Assembly (NCBI RefSeq): GCF_900103275.1
Contig: NZ_FNGP01000002.1
Span: 124,001-188,000 of the forward strand
From: Tessaracoccus oleiagri
Lineage (GTDB): Bacteria > Actinomycetota > Actinomycetes > Propionibacteriales > Propionibacteriaceae
Length of the DNA stretch: 64,000 nucleotides
Direction: 5' to 3'
Below are positions 7,181 through 32,699 of the stretch, piece after piece (position 1 is the first letter of the stretch; each line of letters opens with the position of its first letter). A program made the position numbers and the translations under genes. The notes below the pieces were generated by a model. The model did no database searches, was not told the origin of the DNA, and worked only from the letters and a program-made list of their open reading frames with translations.

Positions 7181-7251
7181 GCGGATGTAGCTCAATGGTA
7201 GAGCTCCAGTCTTCCAAACTGGTGGTGCGGGTTCGATTCCCGTCATCCGCT
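7181..7251 (+). tRNA. tRNA-Gly (anticodon TCC)
   Basis: A cloverleaf is readable: acceptor GCGGATG pairs with CATCCGC, the D arm has GCTCAATGGTAGAGC, the anticodon stem CCAGT/ACTGG encloses loop CTTCCAA (anticodon TCC), and the T arm has GGTTCGATTCC. The discriminator base is T and no CCA is encoded. Confidence 0.96.
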
Positions 7252-7765: not shown

Positions 7766-7838
7766 CGGGGCGTAGCGTAGTGGCTAGCGCGCCTGCTTTG
7801 GGAGCAGGAGACCGCAGGTTCGAGTCCTGTCGCCCCGA
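7766..7838 (+). tRNA. tRNA-Pro (anticodon TGG)
   Basis: Acceptor CGGGGCG pairs with CGCCCCG, the anticodon stem CCTGC/GCAGG encloses loop TTTGGGA (anticodon TGG), and the T arm has AGGTTCGAGTCCT. The discriminator is A and CCA is not encoded. Confidence 0.96.
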
Positions 7839-25513: not shown

Positions 25514-25542
25514 TTCACAGGAACCCTTCCGGCGCCTACACT
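25514..25542 (+). promoter_or_regulatory. Promoter of the lasso-peptide operon
   Basis: TTCACA (25514-25519) and TACACT (25537-25542) are separated by exactly 17 nt. Transcription would start near 25549, at the first base of a perfect hairpin. Confidence 0.6.
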
Positions 25543-25548
25543 CGGTTC

Positions 25549-25581
25549 ATTCGGCTCGATTTTTTTGGGGGCGAGCCGAAT
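25549..25581 (+). promoter_or_regulatory. 5'-UTR hairpin of the lasso operon
   Basis: A perfect 10-bp inverted repeat (ATTCGGCTCG/CGAGCCGAAT) encloses a 13-nt loop with seven T followed by five G. It lies at the predicted transcript 5' end, 20 bp before the B1 start codon. It could stabilise the mRNA, or the duplex DNA could be an operator. Confidence 0.6.
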
Positions 25582-25601
25582 GTGCTTTCGGGGGGACGCA
25601 C

Positions 25602-25868
25602 ATGAAGCTTCGAACAACCGACATCACCTGGCGTGAGATCGATGGCGATCTGATCATTCTCGACCTCACCTCATCGACGTATCTCACGGCGAACGCCAGC
25701 GGGGCGGTCCTGATGAAGGAACTCACCGAGGAACGTTCGAGCCAGGAGCTTGCCCAGGCGCTCGTCGATGCCTTCGGCATCGACCACGACCAGGCGGAGT
25801 CGGACGTACGGCACTTCGTGCAGGCCCTCAATGACAGTGGACTGCTGGAAACACGGAACACCGCCTGA
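25602..25868 (+). CDS. Lasso-peptide RiPP recognition element (PqqD-like, B1)
   Basis: An 88-residue PqqD-fold protein. The N-terminal strands (ITWREIDGDLIILDLTSSTYLTAN) and the following helices (GAVLMKELTE, QELAQALVDAFGI, DVRHFVQALNDSGLLE) match the stand-alone B1 proteins that bind the precursor leader and deliver it to the B2 peptidase. It is the first gene of the operon, before the precursor, which is an uncommon order. The ATG follows GGGGGGACGCAC, an adequate ribosome-binding site. Confidence 0.92.
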   Translation: MKLRTTDITWREIDGDLIILDLTSSTYLTANASGAVLMKELTEERSSQELAQALVDAFGIDHDQAESDVRHFVQALNDSGLLETRNTA

Positions 25869-25917
25869 TCTCCGTCGCACGGGCGACGAGGCACGCACAC
25901 TTCGGGGAGGTGAAGCT

Positions 25918-26049
25918 ATGAAAGAGACATACGAGCCGCCGCAGCTGACGAAAGTCGGCTCGCTGACCGACCTCACGCTCGGCGGAGGACGGGGCGGTAC
26001 CGACGACCTGTACAACGAGAGGGCGCCGTGGGGACCGGTTCTCTCCTGA
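25918..26049 (+). CDS. Lasso-peptide precursor (A)
   Basis: A 43-residue precursor with strong site GGGGAGGTGAAGCT before its ATG. The leader (residues 1-21) matches the lasso leader motif exactly: Tyr5, Pro8, Leu10, Gly14 and Thr20 (the conserved Thr at -2). The core is residues 22-43. It starts with three Gly, has Asp29 and Asp30 at core positions 8 and 9 as macrolactam acceptors, an aromatic tail (Tyr32, Trp38), Pro37 and Pro40, and a C-terminal Ser43. The ring would therefore have 8 or 9 members. The terminal Ser fits modification by the HPr-kinase-like protein encoded downstream. Confidence 0.93.
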   Translation: MKETYEPPQLTKVGSLTDLTLGGGRGGTDDLYNERAPWGPVLS

Positions 26050-26068
26050 ACCGCCATGGCCCGACGAC

Positions 26069-26094
26069 TCGGGGGCGGCTCCGGCCGCCCCCGA
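26069..26094 (+). terminator. GC-rich hairpin after the precursor gene (partial terminator or processing element)
   Basis: A perfect 11-bp stem (TCGGGGGCGGC/GCCGCCCCCGA) with loop TCCG starts 19 bp after the precursor stop, with no U-run. Such hairpins between precursor and enzyme genes are common in RiPP operons and raise precursor mRNA over enzyme mRNA. Confidence 0.65.
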
Positions 26095-26120
26095 CCCATG
26101 TCGATCTGGAGGTGCTGACC

Positions 26121-27290
26121 ATGAACCCCACGACCACCCGGGAGTACATCCGGAGCGCGCCCCTCGAAGTGGCGGCCGGGTGGGTGTACGGAACGCTCGC
26201 TCAGGTCCAGTGGCCCACGGGCACCGCGACACCGCGACAGGCCCTCGACGATGCGCTGCGCCCGGCTCTGGAGTCGCCCCCGTGCTACGTGCTGTTCTCC
26301 GGTGGCCGGGACTCCTCCGCAGTCCTGGCGGCGGCCACCGCGCTCGCCCGCCGGGAGGGCCATGCTCTGCCGGTGCCCGTCACCCGGGTCCACCCGTTGG
26401 TGGCCGAGACCCGCGAGGACGAGTGGCAGCAGCTCGTGATCGAGCACCTGGGGCTGACGGAGTGGGTCCGTCTGGAGTACCTGCATGGTGAGACCGACCT
26501 GCTTGGCGAGCCGGCGCGCAGTTCACTGCAGCGGCACGGCGTGCTCTGGCCCCCCGCCCTCCACACGATGGCCGGGACGTTCTCCTCGTTGTCTCCGGGT
26601 TCCCTGCTGACGGGCGAGGGGGGTGATGCGGTCCTCGGGCCACACCGGGTCACTCCGCTGACGGCGCTCCGGCGCGGACGAAGGCCCTCCGCCGCTCTCC
26701 TGTCCCTGGCGGCGCAGTCGATCGCCCCCGGGCCGGTCCGGCGTATGCTCCTTCGCCGGGCGATGGTCCGCAGTGGCGAGCGTTCGTGGCTCACCAAGGA
26801 CGCGCTGCACGAGCACCGCAGGCTCGGGGCGGCCGACGAGAGCGCCGAGCCGCTGCCCTACGACGCCGCCCTGGCGCACCTCGCGGGCCGGCGGTTCCTG
26901 CGCGTGGTGGCGCACAACCAGGCCCTGGCGGCAGCCGAGCACGGTCTCCGTTCCTCCGAGCCCTTGCTCGACGCCGGCTTCCTCTCCGCGCTGGCCCGGG
27001 CCGGCGGCCGCTGGGGCTTCACGGGGCGCACCGCGACGATGCGGGCGCTCTTCTCCGACGTCCTCCCCGATGTGGTCCTTGCCCGGGCGACGAAGGCCAG
27101 TTTCAACCACGCGTACATCGGCGAACAGACGAGGGCGTTCGCGCGGGACTGGGACGGGACCGGGGTGGACCCTGACTTGGTCGACGTCGCGCGCCTCCGT
27201 GACTCGTGGCTCTCCGAGGAGCCCACCATGGCCACGGGCCAACTGCTCCACGAGGCTTGGCTGGCCAGCCGGCCAGGAGTGGGGCCGTGA
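26121..27290 (+). CDS. Lasso-peptide cyclase, asparagine-synthetase-like (C), short form
   Basis: A 389-residue ATP-dependent macrolactam synthetase. The PP-loop SGGRDSS is at residues 60-66 and the second ATP-site motif GEGGD at 165-169. The enzyme should adenylate the core Asp side chain and join it to the Gly1 amine. It is much shorter than typical lasso cyclases because the N-terminal glutaminase-like domain is missing; the reading frame before the ATG at 26121 contains no such sequence. The ATG follows GGAGG with an 8-nt spacer. It overlaps B2 by 4 bp. Confidence 0.88.
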   Translation: MNPTTTREYIRSAPLEVAAGWVYGTLAQVQWPTGTATPRQALDDALRPALESPPCYVLFSGGRDSSAVLAAATALARREGHALPVPVTRVHPLVAETREDEWQQLVIEHLGLTEWVRLEYLHGETDLLGEPARSSLQRHGVLWPPALHTMAGTFSSLSPGSLLTGEGGDAVLGPHRVTPLTALRRGRRPSAALLSLAAQSIAPGPVRRMLLRRAMVRSGERSWLTKDALHEHRRLGAADESAEPLPYDAALAHLAGRRFLRVVAHNQALAAAEHGLRSSEPLLDAGFLSALARAGGRWGFTGRTATMRALFSDVLPDVVLARATKASFNHAYIGEQTRAFARDWDGTGVDPDLVDVARLRDSWLSEEPTMATGQLLHEAWLASRPGVGP

Positions 27291-27739
27291 GACCCCGCGC
27301 CGGACGGACCCTACGAGCGGTCAAGGATCTCTCCCGCGCGGCGAGCGCGGTGTTCGTCGCGGCCCTCGTCGAACTGGGCCTGCGCACCGTCGCCCTCGAT
27401 CGCTTGGCGGCGGGGCTCGGCGTGCCGCTGGCAACCACGGAGGCCCGCCAGGTGGCCGAACCGATGAGGACGCTGCCGCCGTGGGCCCGAGCACGGGTCC
27501 GCGCGACACGTCGCGTACTGCGGCATTGGCCCTTCGGCGACACGTGCCTCCGCCAGGCGCTCGTCAGCGGCCGGCTGCTCCGACGCTTGCGGCCGACGCT
27601 GCAGGTGGGGGTGGCCCGGATCGACGGGGAGGTGCGGGCCCACGCCTGGCTCGTCATCCAGGGAGCGATCCTCGACCCGCTCGGCGCGGCCAGCGGCTAC
27701 CAGCCGTTGACCACCCCCGGGAAGGACGTGCGGCGATGA
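27287..27739 (+). CDS. Lasso-peptide leader peptidase, transglutaminase-like (B2)
   Basis: A 150-residue cysteine protease that removes the leader. The triad is visible: Cys87 (GDTCLRQAL), His119 (AHAWL) and Asp130 (ILDPLG). The N-terminal 75 residues form the helical part usual for B2. The GTG at 27287 overlaps the cyclase stop codon and follows AGGAG with a 7-nt spacer. It is coupled to the kinase gene downstream by ATGA. Confidence 0.93.
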   Translation: MRPRAGRTLRAVKDLSRAASAVFVAALVELGLRTVALDRLAAGLGVPLATTEARQVAEPMRTLPPWARARVRATRRVLRHWPFGDTCLRQALVSGRLLRRLRPTLQVGVARIDGEVRAHAWLVIQGAILDPLGAASGYQPLTTPGKDVRR

Positions 27740-28674
27740 GCGCAACAACGCGGATGCACGGTCTCACGGTGCGGTCCGAAGTGCCGCTGCACCAGTCGCG
27801 GCTCCTGCCCACCGCCACGCCCGCGGACCTCGACATCACCGTCGGCGCGCCCGCGCACTCACTGACCGAGGCGCCGACGGGTTCGGTGCTGCTGCACTTC
27901 GAGATGGACCGGCAGTACTACACCGTCGTCGCCGACGACCACGGGTACCTGCTGCGTTTCTACGGGACCTGCGACGTCCGTCTCGACGAGGGACTCCGGC
28001 AGGCGAGCGTGCACGCGCTCCCCGGGACCGATCCCGCGATCCTGTCGGTCCTGCTCGGCGGCACCGTCCTCGCCACGGTCCTCGCCCTCCGCGGCGACCC
28101 CGTGCTGCACGCCAGCGCCGTCCAGGTGGGCGACGAGGCGCTCGCGTTCGTCGGCTCGTCGGGGATGGGCAAGTCGACGACGGCCACACTGTTCTGCGCG
28201 GAGGGGGCGCGGCTCATCACGGACGACGTGCTCCGGCTGGACCTCGGCGGCATGGCACCGCGCTGTTTCCTGGGCGCGACCGAACTCAGGCTCCGCAAGT
28301 CCGCCGGGACCCTCGCCGACGCCTTCGCCGTACGGCCGGGGCAACGCACGACCGGCGACGCCCGCGAAGCGCTGTCGGTGTCCACCGCCGAGGACGAGGC
28401 GCTGCCGCTGAGGGCGGTCATCGTGCCCCTCCCCGACAAGGATGGCCGCCGGGAGACCACCGTCGAGCGGCCCGACCCCATGGCGGCCTTCCTGCTGCTG
28501 TCCCGGTTCCCACGCCTGATCGGCTGGCGCGACGCGGACATCCTGCGGCGACAGTTCCAGCAGTTGGGCGACCTCGTCGACCGGGTGCCGGTCTTCGTCG
28601 CGAGGATGCCCTGGGGGCCGCCGTTCCCCGAGGGGCTGGCCGCCTCGGTCCGGCGAGCGGTGGGTGCGGCCTAG
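27736..28674 (+). CDS. HPr-kinase-like lasso-precursor kinase (K)
   Basis: A 312-residue protein with an HPr kinase/phosphorylase C-terminal fold. The P-loop GSSGMGKST is at residues 140-148, preceded by LHASAV (His125) and followed by the acidic LITDDVLRL (Asp163/Asp164). In paeninodin-type clusters the homologous PadeK phosphorylates the C-terminal Ser of the precursor; the precursor here also ends in Ser. It overlaps B2 by ATGA, and its stop shares a CTAG with the convergent nucleotidyltransferase. Activity is inferred from family and context. Confidence 0.87.
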   Translation: MSATTRMHGLTVRSEVPLHQSRLLPTATPADLDITVGAPAHSLTEAPTGSVLLHFEMDRQYYTVVADDHGYLLRFYGTCDVRLDEGLRQASVHALPGTDPAILSVLLGGTVLATVLALRGDPVLHASAVQVGDEALAFVGSSGMGKSTTATLFCAEGARLITDDVLRLDLGGMAPRCFLGATELRLRKSAGTLADAFAVRPGQRTTGDAREALSVSTAEDEALPLRAVIVPLPDKDGRRETTVERPDPMAAFLLLSRFPRLIGWRDADILRRQFQQLGDLVDRVPVFVARMPWGPPFPEGLAASVRRAVGAA

Positions 28675-29795
28675 GAGGCGGCGGTCTCCACCCGGGCGAG
28701 GTACGCGTCGAGCACCTCCGGCGTGGTGGGATTCCGCGCCGGTTCGGCGCGACGCACGATCCGATGTGACACGCCGCTCGCGGCACGTTGCAGGGCCCTG
28801 CCGCCGGTGGCCGCCAGCCCGGGGCGGAGCGCACGGGTCACCAAACGTGCGACGGAGGCGTCCCCGCGCAGGCGCTGGACGGGCCGTCGGCGGTCGAGTT
28901 CCGCGAGCAGGCGTCGCATGCCGGCGCCCACGCCGAGCCTCGCGGCGAGGTCCGCCGGGAGCCGTGTGCCGAGGATTCTCTCCGCGCGGCCGAGGACCGC
29001 CGCCACCTCCACGGGCGCGCCCCACTCCCCGGCCCGCTGGACCACCGCGTCCCAGTCGTCGACCTGCCGCGCCAGCTGGTCGGCATCCAGCAGGTGGCCC
29101 AGCTTCGTCGCGCCGATCAGCGCGGCGTGCAGGGCGACATGCACCACCGCGTCCTCGTGCGACAGCGTCGACAGGGCGGTCGGGCCCAGGGTCACCGGCC
29201 GACGACGGGCGAGCAGCGCGTCGGCGTCGGAAGTGAATCGGCTGCGTACCGAACGGCTGACGACCATCGCCCAGTGCAGGTCGAGCACGAGCCCGTTGCG
29301 GTCGGCGAAGGCCAGTTCCCCGGGGAGCTCCTCACTCTCCAGCGATTCGGCGGACAGCAACACCCGCCAGCCCTCGTCCAGGAGCCTGGTGCAGGCCTCC
29401 CGGAAGTTCGCCGGCGAGACGAGGACGTCCAGGTCCTTGTAGAAGCGCAGCCCGGGGACGGGGTGGGCGAACTCGGAGAGGACCGGCCCCTTGAAGGTGA
29501 GCCACCGCAGCCCTGACAACGTGTCGGCGAGCGCACCGAGCCGGGCGGTGACATGCAGGTGCCGGCTGACCGCCGCCGTCCGGTCGTCCTCGAACAGCGC
29601 GGCCAGTTCCGGGTGCTGCGCGCGCAGTGCGACGTGCGCGAGGGGGGCGATCCGGTGGTACCGCGCGCCCGCGACGAGGTCGCCGGTGAAGAGGTGGCCC
29701 AGTGCCAACAGCTCGTCGGGGAACGTCGGTCGACCTCCGCGGCAGATGGTCACCAGCGCCTCGCCCACCCGCTGTCGCAAGGCTTGCCGTCGCAT
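28671..29795 (-). CDS. Nucleotidyltransferase-family protein of the lasso cluster (N)
   Basis: A 374-residue protein of the NTP_transf_5 (PF14907-like) group. The signature is WLTFKGPVLSEFAHPVPG then RFYKDLDVLV, with the D-x-D metal site. The same family accompanies the kinase in paeninodin-type clusters; its reaction is less well defined and might be nucleotidyl transfer to the (phospho)peptide. The ATG at 29795 follows GGGGGAGGGG and is preferred to a GTG at 29828. It lies on the strand opposite to the other cluster genes, convergent with K (4-bp overlap) and divergent from the exporter. Confidence 0.85.
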   Translation of the reverse strand: MRRQALRQRVGEALVTICRGGRPTFPDELLALGHLFTGDLVAGARYHRIAPLAHVALRAQHPELAALFEDDRTAAVSRHLHVTARLGALADTLSGLRWLTFKGPVLSEFAHPVPGLRFYKDLDVLVSPANFREACTRLLDEGWRVLLSAESLESEELPGELAFADRNGLVLDLHWAMVVSRSVRSRFTSDADALLARRRPVTLGPTALSTLSHEDAVVHVALHAALIGATKLGHLLDADQLARQVDDWDAVVQRAGEWGAPVEVAAVLGRAERILGTRLPADLAARLGVGAGMRRLLAELDRRRPVQRLRGDASVARLVTRALRPGLAATGGRALQRAASGVSHRIVRRAEPARNPTTPEVLDAYLARVETAAS

Positions 29796-29913
29796 GGGCC
29801 CCTCCCCCCGGCTCGGATCGGTAGGCACACGCTACAGCGATCGGCCACGCAGCGGCGGCGGTGCGGGTTAAATGGTGCTACGCGCCTGCGTTCGGCCCGA
29901 GGGGGTGGTGGCC

Positions 29914-31767
29914 ATGGGCGACGAGCCGGAGCGCTCGCTGTCGCTCAGGGCTGCCGCGCGCGCACGACGGAGGTCGATGGGTCAGCTCACCAGCCTCGTG
30001 GCGACGAGCGTCGCCCTCGTCTGGAAGTCGGGGCGCGGACTGTTCGTGCTCCTGTTGGCGCTGCAACTGACTGCCGCGTTGGCGCTGGCCGGTCAGGTGC
30101 TAGCAGTCCAAGCGGTGCTCTCGGCCGTGCTCTCCGAGGTATCCGTGGGAGCCCTCGCGCCGCCCGTCCTCGTGCTGGCCGGGCTCTCGGCGCTGTCCCT
30201 CATCGCCACCGGGGTGCAGGGCCAGGTGCAGCGTCTGCTGGCCGAACGGGTGACCCGCTCGATGTGGCGGCGCGCCCTCATCGTCGCCACGGGGGTGGCC
30301 CTCCGCCACTTCGAGACGCCGGAGTTCTACAACCGGCTGAGCCGGGTGCAGACCAACGCCCTCACGCGGCCCTACCAGGTGACGCAGGGGCTCATGGGCA
30401 TGGCCGGCGGGCTGGCGGCCTCGGTGGCCGTCGCCGCCGCCCTCGCCACCGTGTCGCCGATCCTGCTCCCGCTCGTCGTCCTGGGCGGCGTGCCGGTCCT
30501 CCTGACCAACCGCCGCGAGTCGCGCCTGGAGTTCGACTTCGCGCTCGAGCAGACGGTCACGGTGCGGTGGCGCGAGTACTTCACGGTCCTCCAGACTGGA
30601 CGCGACGAGGCCAAGGAGGTGCGAGCCTTCGGCCTGTCGGCCTGGCTGATGGAGCGCTTCGAGCGGCACTACGACGCCTACCAGCGCGACCTCGTCGGCC
30701 ATGTGCGCCGCCGCACCGTGCTCACGGTGCTGGGCCAGCTCGGTGCCGCGCTGGTGCTCCTCGTCACCCTCCTGGTCCTCGTGTGGCTCATCGCGCAGGG
30801 ACGTATCGGGGTCGCGGGGGCCGGTGCCGCCATCGTCGCCATCCGGATGCTGGCCACGCAGGTCCAGTCCCTGTTCAAGGGCGTGCAGGTGGTCTTCGAG
30901 TCCGGCCTGTTCCTCGACGACCTGGACCGCTTCCTGTCCCTCGGCACCGCCGCCGCCGAGGAGGACCGCGGCGACGAGGCACCCTCCTCGTTCCGGCGGA
31001 TCGTCGCCGAGGATCTCCACTTCCGTTACCCGGCGGCGGAGACCGAGGCGCTGCGCGGCGTCAGCGTGGAGCTCCGCGCCGGGGAGGTGGTGGCGCTCGT
31101 CGGGGAGAACGGCTCCGGAAAGACCACCCTGGCCAAGCTCCTCGCCGGCCTTTACGAGCCCGACAGCGGCGCCATCCTCTGGGACGGGCGGGACGTCGCG
31201 GAGTTCCGGCCATCCAGCCTCCGGCAGCGGGTGAGCGTCGTGTTCCAGGACTTCGTCCGCTACGCCTTCTCCGCCGGGGAGAACATCGCGATCGGCCGCG
31301 CCGACGCACCGCCCGATCCCGACCGGGTGCGGGCGGCGGCCCGAGCCGCGGGCGCAGAGGAGACGATCGAGTCGCTGCCCGAGGGGTTCGACCAGCTGCT
31401 CTCCCGGTTGTTCCCCGGGGGACGCGAACTCTCGGGCGGCCAGTGGCAGCGTCTCGCGCTCGCCCGCTCCTTCTACCGCGACGCCCCCCTCGTCATCCTC
31501 GACGAGCCGAGCGCCTCCCTCGACCCCCGCGCGGAGCACGCCCTCTTCTCCTCGCTGCGCGACGCGCTGCGAGGCCGGACGGCGCTGTTCATCTCGCACC
31601 GCTTCTCGACGGTCCGCGGCGCGGACCGGATCTACGTCCTCCACGACGGGCTGGTGGCGGAGTCCGGCAGCCACGAGGAGTTGATGGCACGCGACGGGCG
31701 CTACGCCGAGCTCTACCGGCTGCAGGCGGGCGCCTTCCTCGAGTCCGGGGGTGACCGGGACGCGTGA
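29914..31767 (+). CDS. Lasso-peptide ABC exporter/immunity transporter (D)
   Basis: A 617-residue fused ABC exporter with six transmembrane helices in roughly residues 30-310 and one ATPase domain. Motifs are Walker A GENGSGKTT, signature ELSGGQWQR, Walker B LVILDEPSASLD and H-loop FISHR. Members export the mature lasso peptide and often give self-immunity. The ATG at 29914 follows GAGGGGGTGG. It ends the cluster and probably has a promoter in the 118-bp divergent gap with the nucleotidyltransferase. Confidence 0.9.
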   Translation: MGDEPERSLSLRAAARARRRSMGQLTSLVATSVALVWKSGRGLFVLLLALQLTAALALAGQVLAVQAVLSAVLSEVSVGALAPPVLVLAGLSALSLIATGVQGQVQRLLAERVTRSMWRRALIVATGVALRHFETPEFYNRLSRVQTNALTRPYQVTQGLMGMAGGLAASVAVAAALATVSPILLPLVVLGGVPVLLTNRRESRLEFDFALEQTVTVRWREYFTVLQTGRDEAKEVRAFGLSAWLMERFERHYDAYQRDLVGHVRRRTVLTVLGQLGAALVLLVTLLVLVWLIAQGRIGVAGAGAAIVAIRMLATQVQSLFKGVQVVFESGLFLDDLDRFLSLGTAAAEEDRGDEAPSSFRRIVAEDLHFRYPAAETEALRGVSVELRAGEVVALVGENGSGKTTLAKLLAGLYEPDSGAILWDGRDVAEFRPSSLRQRVSVVFQDFVRYAFSAGENIAIGRADAPPDPDRVRAAARAAGAEETIESLPEGFDQLLSRLFPGGRELSGGQWQRLALARSFYRDAPLVILDEPSASLDPRAEHALFSSLRDALRGRTALFISHRFSTVRGADRIYVLHDGLVAESGSHEELMARDGRYAELYRLQAGAFLESGGDRDA

Positions 31768-31796: not shown

Positions 31797-32699
31797 CTAC
31801 GAGGCCCAGGAGAACGAGGAGCGGCGCGGCCGCGAGAAGTCGCCCTGCCCGCGGTACACCTCGATCGCCTCCCGCAGCGCCCGCAGGATGTAGGGCGGGA
31901 ACTGCATGCCCTGGTCGTGGGCGTTGAGGATGCTCCACTCGATGCGGCCGATCTCCCGCGCGAAGAGCTCCAACTCGTCGTCGAAGTTGAGGGCGACGAG
32001 GACCTCACCCATCTGCGCCTTCCACTTCTCGTTCTTGTTCGTCCCCACCAGGCTGAAGCTCGAGGACCGGAGCAGACGGGTGAGGAACAGCTGCCAGGGC
32101 CGGAGCTCGCCGTCCTGGACCATCTTCTCCGCCGACATCCGGTAGAACGCGAAGTGCCCCGGCTCCTGGCGCTTGATCGGCTGGACGATCGTATTCGAGA
32201 TCGCGTGCTCCCCCATGGCGTCCAGTCCCCGGATGAAGTGGCTGTAGGCGAGGACCGCCTGGCGCTCGGTCGCCGCGCCGGTGATGTAGTAGAGCATCCG
32301 GACCACGTCGTGGATCGGTTCCAGGTGCGAGAGCGCGCCGAGCAGCTTCATCTCGGCCGGCACCACCATGTACGGCTCGTCCGCCTCGATGCCGATGTCG
32401 GCCTGGAGCTGGTCGAGGACGTAGCCGTGCGCCATCTCCTGGTCGTACCACACGTCCTGGTAGAAGAGCTTGTCGACCGCCGACGCCCTGGGCAGGAGCG
32501 TGAGTAGTTCGAGGACGTTGCGGTCCACCTCCAACTCCACGCGGGCCAGGTAGTTGATGACCCCGGCGAAGCGCGAGCGCACGGCATCGGGGTCGATGAC
32601 GGTGCGGTCCACGGAGCCGAGGGCGATGGGCGGATGCTCGTCGCCCAACCGGAGTACGAAGTCCCTGAGTGAACTGTCGGTGATGCGCGCCCTCGCCAT
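31797..32699 (-). CDS. Ferritin-like di-iron protein of unknown function
   Basis: A 300-residue helical protein with the ligand series of four-helix-bundle di-iron enzymes: Glu57, Glu88-x2-His91 (QEMAHG), Glu145, and Glu179-x2-His182 (QEPGHF). This E/ExxH/E/ExxH pattern is found in acyl-ACP desaturases and related oxygenases. No signal peptide or membrane segment is seen. There is no clear ribosome-binding site before the ATG. It converges on the lasso exporter with a 29-bp gap. Whether it belongs with the cluster or is an independent housekeeping gene cannot be told. Confidence 0.7.
   Translation of the reverse strand: MARARITDSSLRDFVLRLGDEHPPIALGSVDRTVIDPDAVRSRFAGVINYLARVELEVDRNVLELLTLLPRASAVDKLFYQDVWYDQEMAHGYVLDQLQADIGIEADEPYMVVPAEMKLLGALSHLEPIHDVVRMLYYITGAATERQAVLAYSHFIRGLDAMGEHAISNTIVQPIKRQEPGHFAFYRMSAEKMVQDGELRPWQLFLTRLLRSSSFSLVGTNKNEKWKAQMGEVLVALNFDDELELFAREIGRIEWSILNAHDQGMQFPPYILRALREAIEVYRGQGDFSRPRRSSFSWAS

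Follow-up and report, generated by a model that had tools for sequence, protein, structure and literature searches.

A seven-gene cluster in a 64,000-nucleotide stretch of the genome of Tessaracoccus oleiagri (Propionibacteriaceae; genome 3.16 Mb), hereafter the window, very probably makes a cysteine-free lasso peptide (class II by that criterion) that is phosphorylated at its C-terminus and probably decorated further. The cluster encodes a recognition protein (B1), a precursor peptide (A), a macrolactam cyclase (C), a leader peptidase (B2), a kinase (K), a nucleotidyltransferase-fold protein (N) and an exporter (D), and as a lasso cluster it is real, complete and conserved. An earlier reading made from the letters of the DNA, the sequence-only reading, had proposed this gene set, including K and N, and a phosphorylated product. 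All seven genes were found as open frames at the claimed place with their catalytic residues intact, and the proposed phosphorylation gained comparative backing: the sole serine of the core peptide is its last residue, the predicted active-site residues of K are kept among its relatives, and precursors ended in serine in 27 of 27 cases where K was present and in 0 of 20 where it was not. Phosphorylation of this serine, Ser22, is likely, as is a further modification that depends on N.

The precursor gene A (25918-26049, + strand) is preceded by a Shine-Dalgarno-like GGGGAGG and encodes a leader of 21 amino acids, MKETYEPPQLTKVGSLTDLTL (25918-25980), and a core of 22 amino acids, GGGRGGTDDLYNERAPWGPVLS (25981-26049 including the stop codon). 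The leader contains the motif YEPPQL with a threonine at position -2, and matched the NCBIfam model lasso_leader_L3 over residues 5-23 with an E value of 7.3e-8 and 32.1 bits, above the cut-off of 19. The core has G1, Gly3, Thr7, D8 and D9 and ends in PVLS. Its counterparts in two sister species, Tessaracoccus sp. OS52 (locus L007; core GGGHGGTDDIHVWFLKKGPYLS) and Tessaracoccus rhinocerotis (locus L008; core GEGWAGNDDVLLWFIRYGELS), share with it G1, the Asp-Asp pair at positions 8-9 and the final Leu-Ser, and the middle of the core is variable. The macrolactam ring probably comprises nine residues, from G1 to D9, because among 75 precursors of K-bearing clusters an acidic residue is kept more often at core position 9 (63/75) than at position 8 (17/75). 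Ring closure at D8 was set aside as the less likely choice on the same counts.

The kinase K (27736-28674, + strand, 312 amino acids) is predicted to have the fold of HPr kinase and phosphoenolpyruvate (PEP) carboxykinase. Its AlphaFold2 model (mean predicted local distance difference test score, pLDDT, 96.7) superposed along its full length on PEP carboxykinases (Z 17.0 over 266 residues, root-mean-square deviation 4.0), which are structural relatives of HPr kinase. When the sequence profile of K was compared with the PDB, HPr kinase chains scored best (4e-5). In an alignment of 78 kinases H125, D163 and D164 were kept in all sequences and K146 in 77, and we take these four residues to be the published His-Lys-Asp-Asp residues of lasso peptide kinases. 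The window thus has a His-Lys-Asp-Asp kinase adjoining lasso genes together with a precursor that ends in serine.

Relatives of K were collected by searching one genome per species with an alignment of 13 kinases. The best 80 of at least 189 confirmed relatives represent 79 distinct loci, which are a sample and not the size of the family. Seventy-two of the loci belong to Actinomycetota, in Propionibacteriaceae, Nocardioidaceae, Jiangellaceae, Ruaniaceae, Promicromonosporaceae, Microbacteriaceae, Pseudonocardiaceae and others. Precursors were sought by the leader motif and an acidic residue at core positions 6-10, the last residue never being used; minus-strand candidates were dropped except at L097 and L127, and 15 of the 79 loci were left without a precursor. 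The remaining 64 loci gave the 75 precursors mentioned above, of which 63 end in Ser, nine in Ser-Arg and one each in Gly-Leu, Ser-Phe and Ser-Ala. At least 15 kb was available for 62 loci, of which 60 showed B2, 59 B1, 56 C, 55 N and 50 D.

A second sample was built on B2 and chosen without regard to K. The B2 model NF033537 matched 75 of 296 genomes of the class. Of the 97 matches listed, 95 were extracted together with roughly 5 kb of flanking sequence to either side, the window's own genome and G040 being excluded. Within this distance of B2 a K match of at least 200 bits was found at 17 loci and one of 30-200 bits at eight, and 70 loci had less than 30 bits; 21 of the 70 gave a precursor, L299 included. 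Precursors ended in Ser in 27/27 cases at the 17 K-positive loci and in 0/20 at 20 K-negative loci (Fisher p 1e-13, a value that ignores relatedness). Not entered in this comparison are three precursors, two ending in S and one in G, that lie next to a gene with weak similarity to K. The control precursors were collected with a slightly different pattern and were not individually checked, so that chance frames may be among them. The C-terminal Ser of the precursor is the site on which PadeK acts, and ThcoK and SyanK polyphosphorylate (PMC9266682). On the present counts, the rule that the kinase goes with a C-terminal serine, as for PadeK, ThcoK and SyanK, appears to hold and to extend to Actinomycetota.

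Several observations weigh against a kinase that phosphorylates Ser22 and a product modified in two steps. K matched the Pfam model Hpr_kinase_C (PF07475) with 5.3e-5 and 23.3 bits, below the cut-off of 33.3, and in the PDB sequence search ABC (ATP-binding cassette) ATPases scored nearly as well as HPr kinase (5e-5 vs 4e-5), through the P-loop alone. Twelve of the 75 precursors of K clusters do not end in Ser. The comparison of K-positive and K-negative loci is phylogenetically non-independent, with many near-identical Jiangella-like precursors among the K-positive rows, and it includes one reassignment: L299, with two precursors ending in FS, was moved to the K-positive side after a kinase was found about 6.5 kb from its B2. 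Before this move the counts were 25/25 vs 2/22, and only L299 was examined over a widened stretch, the other K-negative loci being kept at about 5 kb. Seven of the 62 long K stretches gave no N, and the N step may for this reason be optional. Finally, BsfK phosphorylates Ser3 of its precursor and accepts Thr there (PMC10368454). By analogy, K could act on another residue of the core, for example Thr7 in the ring, which occurs in the cores of both the window and L007. L008 has Asn and L070 has Asp at this position, in contrast to the last serine, which is kept, and it is the C-terminal Ser that tracks K; we regard a target other than Ser22 as highly improbable.

The protein N (28671-29795, - strand, 374 amino acids) belongs to the NTP_transf_5 family (PF14907, 6.2e-38) and would be a tailoring enzyme with a nucleotidyltransferase fold. 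No sequence relative in the PDB scored below 0.6. In its AlphaFold2 model (pLDDT 96.1) residues 80-272 superposed on MenT1 with Z 13.8 over 174 residues (root-mean-square deviation 3.1); further matches were ANT(2'')-Ia (Z 11.2), MenT3 (Z about 10) and LnuA (Z 9.6). The match to the FKRP transferase (Z 7.6) possibly reflects a mere common arrangement. Among relatives, K102, G103, R117, D121 and D123 were kept in 59/59 sequences, H223 in 60/60, H174 in 59/60 and D172 in 58/60, and the active site looks intact for a nucleotidyltransferase.

What N would add to the peptide can be approached from the known systems and from its fold. PsmN of the pseudomycoidin pathway has been linked to the attachment of one or two hexoses to phosphoserine, prior nucleotidylation being left open (PMC9266682). 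The sequence-only reading had not drawn the consequence of N, which by analogy with pseudomycoidin would be a second modification placed on the phosphate. The transferred group may be a hexose, a nucleotidyl or a sugar-phosphate, the fold of N being closest to MenT1 and ANT(2''). One reading takes N as a genuine nucleotidyltransferase and the product as a peptide-nucleotide conjugate, with a nucleoside monophosphate transferred by N onto the phosphate of Ser22. The conservation of D121, D123, D172 and K102-G103 speaks for it, as do the best folds, MenT1, ANT(2'')-Ia, MenT3 and at a lower score LnuA, all nucleotidyltransferases by their entry titles, and the finding that no sugar transferase occurs among the genes common to the window and five related clusters. 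Nucleotidylation by PsmN is also left open in the review itself, but what it reports for pseudomycoidin is hexose and not a nucleoside monophosphate, and the middling Z values indicate fold rather than function. We therefore consider this reading doubtful, though worth keeping in mind.

Alternatively, modification could end with K, yielding a mono- or polyphosphorylated lasso peptide, with N acting in some other way or not on the peptide at all. The polyphosphorylation reported for ThcoK and SyanK (PMC9266682) would agree with such an outcome, and so would the position of N, which is encoded on the opposite strand in the window as well as in L007 and L008, the seven long stretches in which N was not found, and the nature of its nearest structural matches, which are toxins and antibiotic-modifying enzymes. 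Nevertheless N lies inside the B1-D stretch common to the related clusters, accompanies K in 55 of the 62 long stretches and keeps its aspartates as described, and PsmN is reported to act on phosphorylated serine (PMC9266682). A product finished by K is in our view unlikely, and phosphorylation of Ser22 followed by a step dependent on N is the preferred reading.

Under this preferred reading biosynthesis would proceed as follows. B1, judging from its protein family, would bind the Tyr-Pro motif of the leader and present the precursor. K would then place one or more phosphates on Ser22 of the linear precursor before folding, a step proposed because of the precedent of PadeK and ThcoK and the correlation between K and the terminal serine. 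B2 would cleave after Leu21, and C would join G1 to the Asp9 side chain, so that the tail becomes trapped. Either before or after folding, N would decorate the phosphate on Ser22, with a hexose in the manner of PsmN or, judging by the fold of N, with a nucleotidyl or sugar-phosphate moiety. D would export the product. Calculated monoisotopic masses are 2273.082 for the linear core, 2255.072 for the lasso, 2335.038 and 2415.005 for the lasso with one and two phosphates, and 2497.091 for the lasso with a phosphate and a hexose.

The nine precursors ending in Ser-Arg (L117, L118, L120, L128, L139, L141, L150, L151 and L153) are accompanied by kinases that form one clade (support 100/99), nested among the kinases of Ser-type loci. 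Clade-specific alignment columns are present, and one of the nine loci, L141, is from Micropruina. In Georgenia satyanarayanai CGMCC 1.10826 two kinase-bearing clusters occur on one contig (L120 and L158, in overlapping stretches), the first with a Ser-Arg precursor and a kinase of the Ser-Arg clade; in the second the precursor ends in Ser and the kinase falls outside this clade. For the actinobacterial K-N pair as a whole we tentatively propose that N, in view of its MenT/ANT-like fold, its conserved metal triad and the lack of a sugar transferase among the genes common to the related clusters, links a nucleotidyl or sugar-phosphoryl group, and not simply a hexose, to the Ser22 phosphate, which would be new to lasso peptides, and that the Ser-Arg kinase clade tags a serine that is penultimate or made terminal by trimming of the arginine; this twofold proposal has a low probability.

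Other variants were seen among the K loci. Loci of the Jiangella/Phytoactinopolyspora type (L093, L094, L095, L096 and L100) have two different precursors each, both ending in Ser, and the two-precursor type was also seen at L277, L279, L280, L282, L283, L284, L285, L290 and L291, some of these genomes being shared with the first list. In Pseudonocardiaceae, K clusters with two cyclase genes were found at L122, L137, L144, L145, L152, L154 and L159; five of these seven have two unlike precursors, one ending in FGDLTFS. Related kinases with B1, and in some cases N, occur in metagenome-assembled genomes (L119, L121, L123, L131, L140, L156 and L161) assigned to Verrucomicrobiota, Chloroflexota, Planctomycetota, Methylomirabilota, Acidobacteriota and one unplaced bacterium. 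Large frames with SGGVDSS are present at L119, L121, L140 and L161, and L156 has a C match; these clusters may be of the lasso type or resemble those for linear phosphopeptides.

The remaining biosynthetic proteins agree with a lasso pathway. B1 (25602-25868, + strand, 88 amino acids) is a discrete PqqD-like RiPP (ribosomally synthesized and post-translationally modified peptide) recognition element (RRE; PF05402, 3.7e-13). It matched the NCBIfam model lasso_PqqD_Strm with 3.8e-14 and 52.7 bits, below the cut-off of 70; its best PDB chains by sequence were TbiB1 (7.7e-7) and TfuB1 (5.3e-5), and 9x90 scored 0.21. Among relatives Y27 was kept in 71/71 and D68 in 69/71 sequences. C (26121-27290, + strand, 389 amino acids) resembles asparagine synthetase (PF00733, 1.2e-11) and is the predicted macrolactam cyclase, with the PP-loop SGGRDSS at residues 60-66 kept in 66/66 relatives. 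B2 (27287-27739, + strand, 150 amino acids) is a transglutaminase-like leader peptidase (PF13471, Transglut_core3, 1.4e-12) with a Cys87-His119-Asp130 triad kept in 71/71, 71/71 and 67/67 sequences, respectively; its match to the NCBIfam model lasso_biosyn_B2 (NF033537) reached 4.1e-15 and 56.3 bits, above the cut-off of 33. D (29914-31767, + strand) is an ABC exporter with permease and ATPase parts (PF00005, 7.3e-34). Its frame is open from 29872, and D probably starts at 29914, because three sister D proteins, to which it is 73% identical, align only from residue 15 of the longer reading onward. The Pfam cut-offs were passed by B1 (PqqD), C (Asn_synthase), B2 (Transglut_core3), N (NTP_transf_5) and D (ABC_tran), and neither K nor N exceeded an NCBIfam cut-off. 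The lasso assignment thus came through a comparison with hidden Markov models, in which the A leader and B2 scored above NCBIfam cut-offs and B1, C and B2 above those of Pfam; the lack of matches that would have contradicted it did not arise. Together the window holds a B1 RRE, a Cys-His-Asp peptidase, a PP-loop cyclase and a leader with a YxxPxL motif and Thr at -2.

The sequence-only reading had let the cluster begin at 25514 and had most genes joined by start-stop overlaps. The cluster proper begins with B1 at 25602, and start-stop overlaps are present at two of the six junctions only, C/B2 (27287-27290) and B2/K (27736-27739). K and N meet tail to tail with a 4-base overlap of their stop codons, N and D are divergent, and gaps of 49 and 71 bases separate B1 from A and A from C. 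The A-C gap contains a perfect inverted repeat with an 11-bp stem and a 4-nt loop (26069-26094, + strand). Folding of this gap gave z -3.4 in the window and between -3.5 and -6.7 in 7/7 related loci (L085, L086, L088, L089, L148, L090 and L092), with hairpin sequences that differ among all eight gaps. The hairpin perhaps sets the expression of A relative to the downstream genes, as an attenuator or an mRNA-processing element that raises A over C; among the papers listed by a literature search, none was recognisable by title as an account of a hairpin in this gap. Just 5' of B1, at 25548-25582, lies another perfect inverted repeat of 11 bp, whose loop contains a T-run. As a conserved operator it was set aside, being absent from the three pairs listed for the matching region of L085. 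Elsewhere in the window Rfam matches indicate two tRNA genes on the + strand (7181-7251 and 7766-7838).

K clusters are uncommon per genome. Of 396 genomes drawn from the whole phylum, 6 had a full-length K match above 130 bits, as had 13 of 391 from the order. The window's own genome is counted in both samples, and the remaining matches listed in these scans were weak and mostly confined to the P-loop. In the genus group K matched in 4 of 36 genomes, own included. A cyclase of the window's type occurred in 12 of 293 genomes of the order (E 1e-20); 11 of the 12 also had a full-length K match, and in the twelfth, G502, a gene weakly similar to K adjoins C. A search for close plasmid-borne relatives of K gave matches in 4 of 72,556 records, at 28-37% identity, and the idea of such close relatives was set aside.

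The same seven genes recur in two Tessaracoccus and three Nocardioides loci (L088, L089 and L148), and in the former, L007 and L008, they have the identical order and the same orientation of N; at L009, where a contig end truncates the locus, K, N and D are visible. The cluster is more than a chance assembly, because both sister species carry the full set, identically ordered, among neighbours unlike those in the window. Frames of at least 90 residues from 17001-40000 of the window were compared with L007, L008, L088, L089 and L148 at E < 1e-20. In 5/5 comparisons the matches were confined to the span from B1 to D, with none in the flanks of the window; the B1 of L088 fell short of the threshold and was found separately. 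Flanking genes were common to L007 and L008, and likewise to L089 and L148. Since the matches stop at B1 and D while the flanks differ, the seven genes are the unit, located at different sites. We also considered that the cluster had simply been inserted, with relatives retaining an empty site, and no clean site of this kind was seen. The gene to the right of the cluster (31797-32699) has close homologues in 9 other genomes of 39 and the neighbouring SulP has them in about 10; where both occur they are far apart or on separate contigs (G030, G027 and G019).

The scarcity of K in the genus group, together with the fact that no product is known, might suggest a silent or decaying cluster that makes no product. 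Against this, the frames are open, the catalytic residues are intact and the proteins are 56 to 76% identical to their sister-species counterparts, and we judge such a fate very unlikely.

The order B1-A-C-B2-K had been called unusual. It is so when set against the published orders, A-C-B1-B2-D in actinobacteria, C-A-K-B1-B2-D in firmicutes and A-B1-B2-C-K-D in one proteobacterium (PMC5067487), but within the Tessaracoccus/Nocardioides group, where it is shared by the window, L007, L008, L088, L089 and L148, it is ordinary. By this comparison the order is a lineage trait and no oddity of one genome. N is reversed in L085, L086, L089 and L148 and forward in L088, and across the K set B2 usually lies directly before K, while N, D and B1 shift and flip.

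The cluster in the window would accordingly be one of many that are spread over numerous actinobacterial families and encode short cores. Such a family could supply kinases and N enzymes for the tagging of peptide tails and offers a test case for the group transferred by N, with the Ser and Ser-Arg ends as a natural contrast for studying kinase specificity.

Kinase-bearing lasso clusters have been described in Firmicutes and Proteobacteria (PMC8498205) and in Bradymonadales, Acidobacteriaceae and Sphingomonadales being named as well (PMC10368454). In Butyrivibrio and other rumen Firmicutes an HPr kinase, a nucleotidyltransferase and a conserved Ser in the C-terminal region of the precursors have been noted (PMC7533575), and both paeninodins and the linear phosphopeptides termed LPPs have been described as confined to Bacillota (PMC13381572). 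We found no literature on lasso peptides in Tessaracoccus, and no actinobacterial kinase cluster was described in the titles and abstract openings searched; the RODEO survey lay outside that search, and a prior mention, above all in the RODEO tables, is quite possible.

Of the known systems, the LPPs of Bacillota share with the window an RRE, an HprK-like kinase, a nucleotidyltransferase and an exporter, but have a signal-peptidase-like protease and no macrolactam cyclase (PMC13381572), unlike the window with its C and B2. A linear LPP-like phosphopeptide was set aside for the window on account of C and B2 with intact catalytic residues. In Bradymonas sediminis A, B1, B2, C, D, K and N occur together, with Ser3 as the target and a precursor that ends in Asp and has Ile at -2 (PMC10368454), whereas the window has Gly3, a Ser end and Thr at -2. 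SyanK of Sphingobium yanoikuyae resembles K in its target, the C-terminal Ser (PMC9266682). A proteobacterial kinase cluster likewise has split B1 and B2 genes, but it belongs to another phylum and has the order A-B1-B2-C-K-D, and N is not named in the extract consulted (PMC5067487). The paeninodin cluster pade of Paenibacillus dendritiformis is similar in its His-Lys-Asp-Asp kinase, a precursor ending in Ser and a class II product (PMC9266682), and differs in its order, C-A-K-B1-B2-D (PMC5067487) instead of B1-A-C-B2-K-(N)-D. The RREs of paeninodins favour a leader motif with Trp, WxxP (PMC13381572), in contrast to YEPP in the window, whose B1 is nearest to TbiB1 and TfuB1 in the PDB. The pseudomycoidin cluster psm of Bacillus pseudomycoides combines lasso genes with an HPrK-like kinase and N, and the C-terminal Ser of its product is phosphorylated and then decorated (PMC9266682), a likeness that is drawn from published descriptions. 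It belongs to Bacillota, and in firmicutes the nucleotidyltransferase gene lies between B2 and D (PMC8498205), whereas in the window N follows K on the opposite strand. As in a pseudomycoidin-type cluster, the window pairs its kinase with an N whose site residues are intact.

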